A stretch of DNA of 52,328 nt, taken from NCBI GenBank assembly GCA_023260975.1, contig JALQTK010000006.1, positions 17,335-69,662 on the forward strand, read 5' to 3'. Both the position numbers and the translations under genes were made by a program. The stretch's first letter is position 1. Every line of letters begins with the position of its first letter. Positions 25,578-29,919 of this stretch are shown here, one piece after another. The notes beneath the pieces were generated by a model, which worked only from the letters and a program-made list of their open reading frames with translations, was not told the DNA's origin and did no database searches. Origin of the DNA: Pseudidiomarina sp. GTDB taxonomy: Bacteria; Pseudomonadota; Gammaproteobacteria; Enterobacterales; Alteromonadaceae.

Positions 25578-25601
25578 AGCCGCACGATAGCGGTTTTTTT
25601 T
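25578..25601 (+). terminator. Intrinsic terminator after priA
   Basis: AGCCGC and GCGGTT pair with one G-U wobble over a 6-nt loop and run into an eight-base T-tract, starting 4 nt after the priA stop codon. Confidence 0.75.
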
Positions 25602-25678
25602 CTGCCAGCAAACCAGTAAACTAGGCGCAGATAAGCTCAACGAGCGAGCAATCACCTAGCCAGTCGTCAAGGAACTCC

Positions 25679-27421
25679 ATGAAAGAAGCGTTGGAACAAT
25701 TACTAGCAACCGCTGTTGCTACCTTACAATCACAACAGACGTTACCGACCGATCTGCCGGTGCGCATTCAGTTGGATCGTCCACGCGATAAAAGCCATGG
25801 TGATTTTGCTACCAACTTAGCGTTGTTGTTGGCTAAGCCTGCAAGCATGAATCCGCGGGTGTTGGCGGAGGCTGTTATTGCTGCTATTCCAGCCAATACA
25901 TTGCTTGAGAAAGCCGATGTTGCTGGGCCAGGTTTCATTAATTTCACCTTCAGTCAGCAGCAATTAGTGCAGCAATTAGAGCGCGCCTATGCTGACGATA
26001 AGCTCGCGGTTGAGTTAGCAACCACGGCTAAAACGGTGGTGATTGACTATTCATCTCCGAATCTTGCCAAAGAAATGCACGTTGGGCATTTACGCTCGGC
26101 CATTATTGGTGACGCGGTGGCGCGGGTGCAGCGTTTTATTGGTAATACCGTGATAGCGCAAAATCATGTTGGTGATTGGGGTACTCAATTCGGTATGTTG
26201 CTGGCGCATATGGAAGCGCTCGAAGGCGACGCCATGGCAATGGAGTTGAGTAACTTAGAAACGTTTTATAAAGCCGCTAAAAAGCGTTTCGATGAGAGTG
26301 AGGCGTTTGCCACTCGAGCGCGTGAGTTGGTGGTCGCATTGCAGTCAGGTGACGCCACCTGTCGGGCACTCTGGCAGCAGTTTATTGAGGTGTCGTTGAG
26401 CCACTGCCAACAAGTTTATGATCGCCTTGGGGTGCAACTCAGCCGTGCCGACGTAATGGCCGAAAGTGCCTACAACGATGATTTGGCTCAAGTTGTTGCC
26501 GATCTACAGGCACAAGGCTTGTTAGTCGAAGACCAAGGCGCTCAATGCGTCTTTTTAGATGAATTTCGTAACAAAGAAGGCGATGCGTTGCCGGTTATTG
26601 TGCAAAAATCGGGTGGCGGGTTCTTATATGCCACCACTGATCTCGCCGCTATTCGGTATCGCCAGAATAAATTACACGCCGATCAGGTGATGTATTTTGT
26701 CGATCAACGCCAAGGTTTACACTTTCAGCAAATCTTCACCCTAGCTCGCAAGGCCGGCTTTGTCAGCGATTCGGTACAACTGGACCATTATGGTTTTGGC
26801 ACCGTGATGGGCAAAGATGGTCGCCCGTACAAGAGTCGTGATGGGGGTGTCACCAAGCTGGCTGATTTGCTTGATGAAGCCGAGAAGCGCGCCTTTGAAT
26901 TATTACAGAGCAAAAATTCGCAATTAACTGAGGCCGAGCAACAGCATGTGGCTAAGGTTATTGGTATTAGTTCGGTGAAATATGCCGACCTATCGAAGAA
27001 CCGTAGCAGCGATTATATTTTTGACTGGGATACCATGCTCAGCTTCGAAGGCAACACCGCACCTTATTTGTTGTACGCTTACACCCGCGTGACCAGCGTG
27101 TTTAACAAAACCAATATTGCGGCGGCCAGCATTAGTGCGCCATTGCTGCTGGAAGACGAGCGCGAGCTGGCGCTTGCGAATCTATTAGTGCGTTTTAATG
27201 AAACTGTTTACAGTGTCGCCGATAAAGCCATGCCACATTTCCTCTGCGGCTACTTGTTTGATTTGGCTGGCGCGTTTTCGACCTTCTACGAAGCCTGTCC
27301 AATTTTAGCTGAGCCGCGTGAAGATCGTCGCTTGAGTCGTCTGAAATTAGCCGCACTAACGGCGAAAACATTGAAGACCGGTTTGTCACTATTGGGTATT
27401 GAAACCCTCGAGAAGATGTGA
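25679..27421 (+). CDS. argS: Arginyl-tRNA synthetase
   Basis: ArgRS (580 aa) charges tRNA-Arg. It has the N-terminal additional domain (about 1-110, with [12 protein letters not shown]), the class I HIGH motif as HVGHLRS, the GxVxGxDGxPYKSRDG element that replaces KMSKS, and an anticodon-binding C-terminal domain ending in a typical [13 protein letters not shown]. Length matches E. coli (577). A GGAAC-type ribosome site precedes the ATG. The gene is followed within 3 nt by the ftsN-like gene, so the two are probably one transcript. Confidence 0.97.
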
Positions 27422-27424
27422 GCT

Positions 27425-27997
27425 ATGGATTACGCGAATCGTAAACGTCCGCCGGTTAAGAAAAAGTCGACCGGTAAATCGGCGAAAAAGTCCGCTGCTA
27501 AAGCCAAAGCCCCGGTGTCTTGGCAGTTGGTGGTGTTTACTCTGAGTTTAGTTGCTGGTTTGGTATGGTTTTTGTACAGCATTGCCGGTAGCAAGGAGCA
27601 ACAGGCCCAGACGCCACAACCAGCGCCAGTAATCAGCGCCAAGATGCAACAGCAGATCGATAAAGAAGCTATTCCTGAACTACCTGATGAGCAGTATAGC
27701 TACCTTGATATGCTGGAAAATGAAGAGGTTGAAGTGGACGTGCCAGAGCGTGAAGCGGGTAAACCCAAACTCATGCAGTGTGGTTCGTTCCGTAGTTCAA
27801 GTGATGCCGAAACCTTGCGTGCACGTATCGCTTTGAATGGTCTTGAAGCCCAAGTTCGTCGCTCGGAAGGGCGCAATGGCGTATGGTATCGAGTTATTCT
27901 TGGTCCTTATGCAACTAAACGTGATGCCGAGCGTGATCGGCACAAACTGCAACGTGCGAAAATTCATTATTGTGAGATTTGGAACTGGAATCTCTAA
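27425..27997 (+). CDS. Short FtsN-like SPOR-domain cell division protein
   Basis: The 190-residue protein has a lysine-rich cytoplasmic tail (1-33), one membrane span (about 34-52), a proline/glutamate linker and a C-terminal SPOR domain (about 112-186, MQCGSFRSSSDAETLRARIA ... YRVILGPYATKRDAER), which binds denuded glycan at the division septum. The position between priA/argS and hslV is that of ftsN. E. coli FtsN is 319 residues; the linker here is much shorter, although a QQQIDKEAIPELPDEQYSYLDMLE segment resembles the essential E-peptide region near the membrane. The start codon is 3 nt after the argS stop. Confidence 0.85.
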   Translation: MDYANRKRPPVKKKSTGKSAKKSAAKAKAPVSWQLVVFTLSLVAGLVWFLYSIAGSKEQQAQTPQPAPVISAKMQQQIDKEAIPELPDEQYSYLDMLENEEVEVDVPEREAGKPKLMQCGSFRSSSDAETLRARIALNGLEAQVRRSEGRNGVWYRVILGPYATKRDAERDRHKLQRAKIHYCEIWNWNL

Positions 27998-28003
27998 GTT
28001 ACC

Positions 28004-28033
28004 ATTGAAATAGCTTGCTGGCGTCCTCATCTA
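28004..28033 (+). promoter_or_regulatory. Candidate heat-shock (sigma-32) promoter of hslVU
   Basis: ATTGAAA (28004-28010) resembles the sigma-32 -35 element CTTGAAA, and CCTCATCTA (28025-28033) matches the -10 element CCCCATNTA at all but one fixed position. The 14-15 bp between them is inside the accepted range. hslVU is a classical sigma-32 target in E. coli. The start would fall near 28039-28042. Confidence 0.65.
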
Positions 28034-28057
28034 TCGGTGATAGCAACATGAGGATGC
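28021..28057 (+). other. Hairpin that encloses the hslV ribosome binding site
   Basis: GCGTCCTCAT (28021-28030) pairs with ATGAGGATGC (28048-28057) over 10 bp with one G-U pair, and CTATC (28031-28035) with GATAG (28039-28043) extends the stem, leaving a 4-nt bulge. The 3' arm holds the GAGGA ribosome site, 7 nt before the hslV GTG. A 5'-leader stem-loop that stabilises hslVU mRNA is known in E. coli; direct covering of the ribosome site is what I see here. Confidence 0.65.
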
Positions 28058-28061
28058 AACA

Positions 28062-28598
28062 GTGACTACAATTGTTTCAGTGCGCCGCGGTAATGCGGTG
28101 GTGATTGGTGGTGATGGCCAGGTTTCGCTCGGCAATACAGTAATGAAAGGCAATGCCCGCAAGGTTCGTCGTCTTTATCAAGATCAAGTCATCGCTGGCT
28201 TCGCCGGTGGTACCGCTGATGCTTTCTCGCTGTTTGAGCGGCTGGAAGTGAAACTCGAAAAACACCAAGGTAATTTAATGCGTGCCGCCATCGAGCTGGC
28301 CAAAGATTGGCGCACCGATCGCATGCTGCGACGACTCGAGGCGATGCTGGTGGTGGCCGATAAAAACGTCTCCTTGTTGATTTCTGGTAATGGTGACGTG
28401 GTGCAGCCTGAACATGATTTAATTGCGATTGGATCAGGTGGTGGCTATGCCCAAGCGGCAGCCACCGCATTGTTGGCCAATACTGACCTGAGTGCCCGCG
28501 ATATCGTCGAAAAATCGCTGACTATTGCCGGTGAGATTTGCGTGTTCACCAACCAATTCCAAACGATTGAACTGCTGGAGACCGCTGAGCATGTCTGA
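28062..28598 (+). CDS. hslV: ATP-dependent protease peptidase subunit HslV
   Basis: HslV (178 aa) is the proteasome-like dodecameric peptidase of the HslUV heat-shock protease. After removal of the initiator Met the N-terminal nucleophile is Thr, seen as [38 protein letters not shown] and the C-terminal helix that docks HslU follow. The start is GTG with GAGGA 7 nt upstream, but that site lies inside a hairpin. The 3' end overlaps hslU by 8 nt, so the two are translationally coupled. Confidence 0.97.
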
Positions 28599-29919
28599 GA
28601 TGACCCCACGCGAAATTGTTGATGCGTTAAATCAGCATATTGTTGGCCAAGACAATGCTAAAAAAGCGGTTGCTGTTGCGCTGCGTAATCGTTGGCGCCG
28701 GATGCAGCTGAGCAGTGACTTACGTCACGAAGTAACGCCTAAAAATATCCTCATGATTGGCCCAACCGGGGTCGGTAAAACGGAAATTGCGCGACGTTTA
28801 GCGAAGCTTGCCAATGCGCCGTTTATCAAGATTGAAGCGACCAAGTTCACCGAGGTTGGTTATGTCGGTAAAGAAGTTGAAAGTATTATCAAAGACTTGA
28901 CTGATATTGCCTTCAAACAAACGCGCGAGCAAATGATGAAAAAAGTTCGCTTTCGCGCGGAAGAGGCGGCTGAAGAGCGTATTTTAGATGCGTTATTACC
29001 GCCAGCTAAGGGCTGGGCAGATGAGTCGGAGCCGCGCGAGCAAAGCAATACCCGTCAGGTGTTCCGCAAAAAATTACGCGAGGGTCAGCTGGACGACAAA
29101 GAAATCGAAATTGATATTGCGCAACCTGCCATGGGTGTTGAAATTATGGCGCCGCCAGGTATGGAAGAAATGACTTCACAATTACAAAGCATGTTCCAGA
29201 ACATCGGCCAAGGTAAGAGCAAAGCGCGTAAGCTCAAGATCAAAGATGCCTTTAAGCAATTGGTCGACGAAGAAGCTGGCAAGATGCTGAACCCAGAAGA
29301 TGTAAAAACTGCAGCATTGCATGCAGTGGAGCAAAACGGCATCGTGTTTTTGGACGAAGTTGATAAAATTTGTAAGCGTGGCGATGTCAGTGGACCTGAC
29401 GTGTCGCGCGAAGGCGTACAACGTGATTTATTGCCGCTGGTTGAGGGCACCACGGTGGCCACGAAGCACGGCATGGTCAAGACTGATCATATTCTATTTA
29501 TCGCCTCTGGCGCTTTTCAAATGTCGAAACCCTCTGATTTAATTCCAGAGCTGCAAGGGCGTTTACCGATTCGAGTCAATCTGGATGCATTAACCAGCCA
29601 TGATTTTGTCCGCATCCTGACCGAGCCGAATGCCTCCCTAACGACTCAGTACCGAGCCTTGATGGCCACTGAAGGGGTAACCATTGAATTTACTGCAGAT
29701 GGTATTCAACGCATTGCGGAAACTGCCTTTCATGTCAACGAAACCACTGAAAACATCGGAGCGCGCCGTTTACATACGGTATTAGAGCGACTGATGGAGG
29801 AAGTTTCCTTTAAAGCCAGTGATTTGGCCGGTGAAACCATCGTCATAAGTGGCGACTACGTTGACCAGCATTTAGGTAAACTGGCGCAAGACGAAGATTT
29901 AAGTCGTTTTATTCTGTAA
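28591..29919 (+). CDS. hslU: ATP-dependent protease ATPase subunit HslU
   Basis: HslU (442 aa) is the AAA+ hexamer that unfolds substrates for HslV. It starts [20 protein letters not shown], with Walker [16 protein letters not shown], the pore loop GYVG in [10 protein letters not shown], an I-domain insertion (about 110-240), Walker [10 protein letters not shown] and the sensor region [14 protein letters not shown], ending in the short tail (LSRFIL) that inserts into HslV. The frame is open upstream, but the ATG at 28591 inside the hslV end gives the conserved N-terminus and the E. coli length (443). Confidence 0.97.

Follow-up and report, generated by a model that had tools for sequence, protein, structure and literature searches.

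The 5' leader of hslV in the Pseudidiomarina DNA analyzed here (a stretch of 52,328 nucleotides, hereafter the window) probably contains a silencer of read-through RNA that is embedded in the gene's own promoter. The bases of the -10 element would have two jobs, acting as promoter in DNA and as an anti-Shine-Dalgarno arm in any RNA entering from ftsN. In such RNA, the -10 bases and the spacer bases preceding them would pair with the Shine-Dalgarno (SD) sequence and with the bases between it and the start codon, thereby closing the hslV ribosome site, and this closure would probably extend to hslU through the overlap of the two genes. RNA initiated at the sigma-32 promoter would start downstream of the 5' arm, could not form the stem and would be translated, such that HslVU synthesis would be limited to sigma-32-initiated mRNA. 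The basis of this reading is the set of elements present in the DNA, a pairing that is conserved and covaries, and a contrast in computed folding energies; from these, we infer that read-through RNA occurs in the cell, that transcription starts near position 28039 and that translation suffers when the stem forms, with only the promoter-started RNA probably being well translated.

Promoter and hairpin between ftsN and hslV

The genes at this locus are arranged in the order argS, ftsN, hslV, hslU, rraA (Table 1), and the nearest named relative among the matches listed is P. mangrovi, with 91% identity in HslV. The FtsN profile match (E 4e-29) scores 102.1 bits, slightly below its cut-off of 107.65. 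Because only 64 nt separate ftsN from hslV and no terminator-like site is listed on the plus strand from 26593 to 28200, read-through from ftsN into hslV is plausible. A terminator-like hairpin followed by a T run occurs at 25578-25605, between priA and argS, so RNA reading into hslV would begin at argS or later. The ATG of hslU lies within the 3' end of hslV, and since this 8-nt overlap (common to all 25 Pseudidiomarina loci) joins the two genes, translation of hslU is probably coupled to that of hslV.

Table 1. Features of the argS-hslU region, in window coordinates
Feature	Position	Strand	Remarks
argS	25679-27421	+	presumed source of read-through RNA, along with ftsN
ftsN	27425-27997	+	upstream neighbour, presumed origin of read-through RNA; TIGR02223
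-35 element, sigma-32 type, ATTGAAA	28004-28010	+	from sequence; 6 of 7 consensus bases
Outer stem, 5' arm, GCGTCCTCAT	28021-28030	+	4 spacer bases and first 6 of -10 element
-10 element, sigma-32 type, CCTCATCT	28025-28032	+	spacer 14 nt; aligned across genus
Inner 5-bp stem, CTATC/GATAG	28031-28043	+	arms 28031-28035 and 28039-28043; 3-nt loop
Predicted RNA start of sigma-32-type promoter	28038-28040	+	promoter geometry, 6-8 nt past -10 element
Outer stem, 3' arm, ATGAGGATGC	28048-28057	+	contains SD; sequence and folding
Shine-Dalgarno, GAGGA	28050-28054	+	invariant in 23 aligned Pseudidiomarina rows
hslV, HslVU peptidase subunit	28062-28598	+	GTG start 28062-28064; TIGR03692, E 3.9e-84
hslU, HslVU ATPase subunit	28591-29919	+	TIGR00390, E 3.1e-214

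The sigma-32 consensus is CTTGAAA, a spacer of 13-15 nt and CCCCATNT. The window's promoter matches 6 of 7 bases at -35 and 6 of the 7 specified bases at -10, and 29 nt lie between the end of its -10 element and the hslV GTG. Judging from its sequence, this promoter is predicted to use sigma-32: its motif and spacing agree with the consensus, it is kept in relatives, and an rpoH gene scoring above its family cut-off is present in the window's genome. A second rpoH-like gene is situated beside groES on contig G000:C132 (L220, L233) of the same assembly, an arrangement that the five other genomes checked for groES do not have; this is perhaps a foreign contig within the binned genome. Around the predicted RNA start, the block (C)ATAGCAAC (28039-28047) is nearly invariant in 23 leaders despite lying outside the conserved stem, and two Pseudidiomarina groES promoters (L218, L219) have CATAACTG downstream of the -10 element in common with it, so the region from the -10 element to the start may itself be part of the promoter.

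The sequence-only reading placed a 10-bp stem with one G-U, plus a 5-bp inner stem, over the GAGGA of hslV, and it was correct to the base: the segment 28017-28061 folds into exactly these two stems at -18.4 kcal/mol, the single G-U joining 28023 with 28055. It was also right that the 5' arm doubles as part of a near-consensus sigma-32 -10 element, the first six bases of which lie in the arm. The promoter thus overlaps the 5' arm, and RNA from its predicted start lacks that arm, whereas in RNA started upstream the SD is paired, according to both computed folds and covariation. The 111-nt leader from 27990 to 28100 folds at -39.5 kcal/mol (z -3.67), a value equaled in 2 of 200 dinucleotide shuffles, and when arms are exchanged with those of hslV leaders from other genera, no combination pairs as strongly as the window's own (-21.2 kcal/mol; z -4.0, p 0.000). 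The fold of this leader also pairs the -35 region (28003-28011) with early hslV codons; these bases are not kept in relatives, so we regard this pairing as probably due to chance. An antisense or divergent promoter arising from the mirrored -10 on the minus strand was likewise rejected, there being no -35-like element at a fitting distance when examined by eye.

Conservation and covariation of the pairing

The outer hairpin is real and is conserved as a structure. Complementarity of the arms in close relatives had been named beforehand as the test of the sequence-only reading, and it is both kept and covarying in Pseudidiomarina and Idiomarina. When presented with an alignment of 23 of the 25 readable Pseudidiomarina leaders (21 distinct; L015, which has an insertion, and L023, whose leader is long, were set aside) or with 13 rows from Idiomarina (counted by the tool as 12 distinct, although L053 and L062 are a single sequence trimmed at different ends and so enter twice), RNAalifold returned, unprompted, the outer helix and no other. 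The inner CTATC/GATAG stem is not conserved in the genus alignment. A single register, with CCTC from the -10 element opposite GAGG from the SD, is used by the best helix of 21 of 22 leaders in Pseudidiomarina and 10 of 11 in Idiomarina, and all four Alkalimonas leaders come close to it. Rheinheimera backs the arrangement weakly, since only L109 uses the -10 element and L029, L039, L040 and L043 have as their best helix one of 4 bp lying farther upstream.

If the pairing were a coincidence, the abundance of C in the -10 element and of G in the SD would be enough for the two to pair within a short leader, and relatives would have inherited the rest. The CCTC/GAGG core (nearly) never varies and is therefore uninformative on this point, and evidence against coincidence must come from outside it. 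Seven pairs lie outside the motif core in Pseudidiomarina, with 86.3% of 146 cells paired, as opposed to 29.5-47.3% when the pairing is slid by one to three columns. Double-change cells outside the core number 12 versus 4.8 in shuffles, and the covariation score is 0.316 versus 0.203, a score that none of 500 shuffles reached; tallies of pairs or of pair types are no higher than in shuffles (2 vs. 1.9; 6 vs. 6.2), and hence the covariation events in this genus are few. In Idiomarina, the four pairs outside the core are paired in 91.7% of 48 cells (6.3-54.2% when slid), with six double-change cells versus 1.4 in shuffles and with three pairs showing double changes versus 1.1 (8 of 500 shuffles). 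On a quick tree built from hslV and the DNA that follows it (23 species and an outgroup), the pair formed by columns 31 and 72 shows compensatory states at four distinct positions (L002; L020 with L024; L009; L018). The median end branch of the genus tree is 0.2 changes per site, and because the species are so well separated, plain descent is a poor explanation of the kept pairing. There is one recurrent mismatch: the base preceding the -10 element and the last A of GAGGA are unpaired in 15 of 21 distinct rows.

Because C-rich -10 elements and G-rich SDs pair by nature, each leader's own -10 and SD arms were compared with arms swapped between species. The permutation test covered 136 of 149 leaders and the single-leader test 188 of 210, with identical leaders counted once; left out were leaders containing N, eight with promoter scores <16, L027 and L028 (from a single fragmented, N-rich genome, G019), L152, and L127, L131 and L135 (these three from the 80 named loci). 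Labels g1, g28, g11 and g72 are based on leaders identical to named loci, and the equation of g18 with Rheinheimera and of g19 and g75 with Pseudoalteromonas was made in this analysis. With one leader taken from each of 41 genus labels (among which a genus may figure twice, once coded and once named), own pairing averages -7.10 kcal/mol versus -6.16 (sd 0.29) when permuted, a level reached in 1 of 2000 permutations.

This excess is concentrated in particular genera. Own, within-genus swapped and other-genus pairings are, respectively, -12.7, -10.8 and -7.5 kcal/mol in Pseudidiomarina (22 leaders), -15.3, -12.8 and -6.9 in Idiomarina (11 leaders), -16.3, -13.7 and -8.1 in Alkalimonas (three leaders), and -10.8, -9.9 and -6.9 in the group labeled Rheinheimera (nine leaders). 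Shewanella does slightly better with its own arms than with swapped ones (-6.9, -6.2 and -5.9), and in Photobacterium and Pseudoalteromonas foreign arms give better pairing than the own ones. Permuting arms inside a genus equals the own pairing in 0 of 5000 cases for Pseudidiomarina and 3 for Idiomarina, rising to 45 for Rheinheimera, 134 for Aliidiomarina, 286 for Shewanella and 393 for g7, and there is no signal in Vibrio (2187), Alteromonas (3476), Photobacterium (3630) or Pseudoalteromonas (4542); the figure for Alkalimonas, 1663, comes from only three leaders, too few to reach significance. Taken singly, leaders whose own arms beat 95% of foreign arms make up 12/22 in Pseudidiomarina, 9/11 in Idiomarina, 4/4 in Alkalimonas, 5/9 in Rheinheimera, 2/8 in Aliidiomarina, 2/6 in g7, 1/5 in Vibrio and 0/6 in Alteromonas, and across the 188 leaders most other lineages of the order are without the -10/SD pairing despite having kept the promoter.

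Coincidence can thus draw on the fact that nearly half of the Pseudidiomarina leaders are unremarkable when viewed singly (the 10 below the 95% mark are L005, L015-L019, L021, L023, L025 and L026, with the arrangement lost in L023; in Idiomarina, L036 and L045 fall below), and on the ability of other-genus arms to pair at about -7 kcal/mol. Nevertheless, the pairs beyond the core, their covariation and the arm-exchange results all speak against it, as does the separation of the species. So does a control from htpG, which in all six Pseudidiomarina genomes examined has the same promoter type and a leader of 39-60 nt: no such -10/SD pairing is found there, the values lying between -6.1 and -10.0 kcal/mol and being equaled by 18-73% of foreign arms. 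We therefore consider coincidence unlikely.

Pairing would be conserved equally if the hairpin were a processing or stability element in read-through RNA, for example one in which a double-strand cut frees a translatable 5' end, with no silencing involved; and the E. coli hslV leader does have a hairpin of its own at another place. This explanation seems to us quite unlikely, however, in that the arms are centred on the SD and the -10 element in a register that is constant in two genera, and no sign of cutting appeared in this analysis.

Computed folding energies of the two predicted transcripts

For RNA beginning at 27998, the computed cost of opening the five SD bases is 11.2 kcal/mol at 37 C. 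For RNA beginning at 28038-28040 the cost is 0.9 kcal/mol at that temperature and 1.7 kcal/mol at 10 C, this short-RNA value varying with the length of coding sequence included (3.0 kcal/mol with 30 coding bases instead of 60), and RNA begun anywhere inside the 5' arm, from 28026 onward, costs at most 1.5 kcal/mol at 37 C. Among relatives, the own cost is >1 kcal/mol above that of the short RNA in 21/22 Pseudidiomarina, 11/11 Idiomarina, 9/9 Shewanella and 6/18 Pseudoalteromonas, but an excess of this size is non-specific, as its presence in every Shewanella leader attests. A fairer figure is the number of leaders whose own cost is above that obtained with all 20 foreign 5' regions, which is 12/22 for Pseudidiomarina, 7/11 for Idiomarina, 0/9 for Shewanella and 4/18 for Pseudoalteromonas. 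The sequence-only reading held that promoter-born RNA would have a free ribosome site and that read-through RNA from argS-ftsN would be folded and poorly translated; covariation and the large computed contrast bear out its structural part, and the regulatory part is what we infer from them.

The same reading had offered an RNA thermometer as an alternative, in which hslV RNA from an upstream housekeeping promoter would carry the hairpin and heat would melt it to free the SD. An SD hidden in a stem ahead of a heat-shock gene is what such a model calls for, and the opening cost of the RNA from 27998 does fall with temperature, from 14.9 kcal/mol at 10 C to 10.5 at 42 C and 9.1 at 50 C. Yet at 60 C the cost is still 7.1 kcal/mol, such that by computation heating read-through RNA even to 50-60 C does not open the site, and the stem does not open within the growth range; the promoter-born RNA is without the stem, and its site is almost fully accessible even at 10 C. 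Nor is there a match to Rfam 15 with E up to 1 within 27700-28400. Species with weaker stems (4-6 kcal/mol) argue less clearly against a thermometer. In the model, the contrast lies between RNAs and not between temperatures, and because that contrast is so large the energies favour a read-through silencer over a thermometer, which we judge very unlikely. Least probable is that a regulator recognizes the inverted repeat in DNA and binds around the predicted start site, which the two arms do flank, because the arm sequences vary among species with their complementarity kept and a protein site would keep its sequence.

Known systems, related leaders and implications

Silencers of this general arrangement are known from bacteriophage T4 gene e, I-TevI and Bacillus subtilis sigG, to which hslV would by analogy add a sigma-32-type case. 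The late promoters of T4 gene e (lysozyme) are located where the 5' strand of the hairpin is encoded (PMC3014915), and in gene e, as in soc, 49 and I-TevI, the SD is likewise sequestered in the longer RNA that starts upstream; I-TevI has the same architecture as the hslV leader (PMC2988022). Whereas T4 employs a phage late promoter and its silencing has been measured, hslV is a chromosomal heat-shock gene with a sigma-32-type promoter, and its silencing is computed only. For sigG, a hairpin is predicted that would keep RNA reading through from the spoIIG promoter from being translated and that is unable to form in RNA from sigG's own promoter (PMC5942855). The sigG stem is larger (20 or more pairs) and the setting is one of sporulation sigma factors, and, unlike for hslV, the passages on it make no claim that the -10 element is the anti-SD (PMC5942855). 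Literature titles and abstracts, in which subscription journals are thinly covered, yielded no promoter-embedded ribosome-site hairpin at a sigma-32 gene.

ROSE and fourU thermometers also hide the SD in a stem ahead of a stress gene, but the hslV stem is computed to be too stable to melt at growth temperatures and is absent from promoter-born RNA. The E. coli hslVU leader likewise has a sigma-32-type promoter between ftsN and hslV; its hairpin (GCCCCGTAC/GTACGGGG), however, comes after the -10 element in a longer leader (69 nt past the -10), and its -10/SD pairing is average (z -0.1). That leader hairpin reportedly affects expression. In a heat-evolved E. coli strain, G6 has changed to G4 between hslV and ftsN (PMC10044804).

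Inspection by eye of other leaders turned up further configurations at the hslV ribosome site. Upstream of hslV in Aliidiomarina L046, L139 and L041 the arms are shifted downstream of the -10 element, and in L046 and L139 the SD is covered by a long hairpin without mismatches, CTTCCTCTTTATC/GATAAAGAGGAAAG, part of which would persist in promoter-born RNA, making a thermometer possible in these two. In five Pseudoalteromonas leaders (L052, L063, L067, L074, L075), a CCTCATC directly 3' of the -10 element complements the SD-bearing GATGAGG, with a further hairpin between the two, which is another way of hiding the SD. The last 35 nt ahead of hslV in g18 L050 and L051 contain a AAGCCCTATG/CATAGGGCTT hairpin and then a T run ending at the start codon; the hairpin contains an SD-like AGGG, placing a terminator-like element inside the ribosome site, and the SD is computed to be closed in long and short RNA alike. 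Vibrio L116 has the -10/SD pairing despite a terminator-like hairpin upstream, which counts against the silencer. The automatic scan of leaders for terminators and for the upstream stop was crude, calling spurious frames and overlooking terminators that the eye could see, and it is confounded by phylogeny.

A broader and more tentative interpretation, for which we would put the chances at somewhat under even, is that the -10 element is a dual DNA and RNA code that licenses only messages from the heat-shock promoter, and that it has been kept or gained repeatedly, with SDs remodeled to fit the -10. The lineages concerned would be Pseudidiomarina, Idiomarina, Alkalimonas, single species of Rheinheimera and Aliidiomarina, and two g7 leaders; some Vibrio and Alteromonas perhaps have the device as well. 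If this is true, a stress gene within a string of housekeeping genes would be insulated without a terminator, the promoter's own bases locking the translation of unwanted RNA. The sigma-32 -10 sequences of these genera would then evolve under two simultaneous constraints, and departures from CCCCAT (here CCTCAT, with the T facing the A of GAGG) may have arisen because these bases also pair with the SD.
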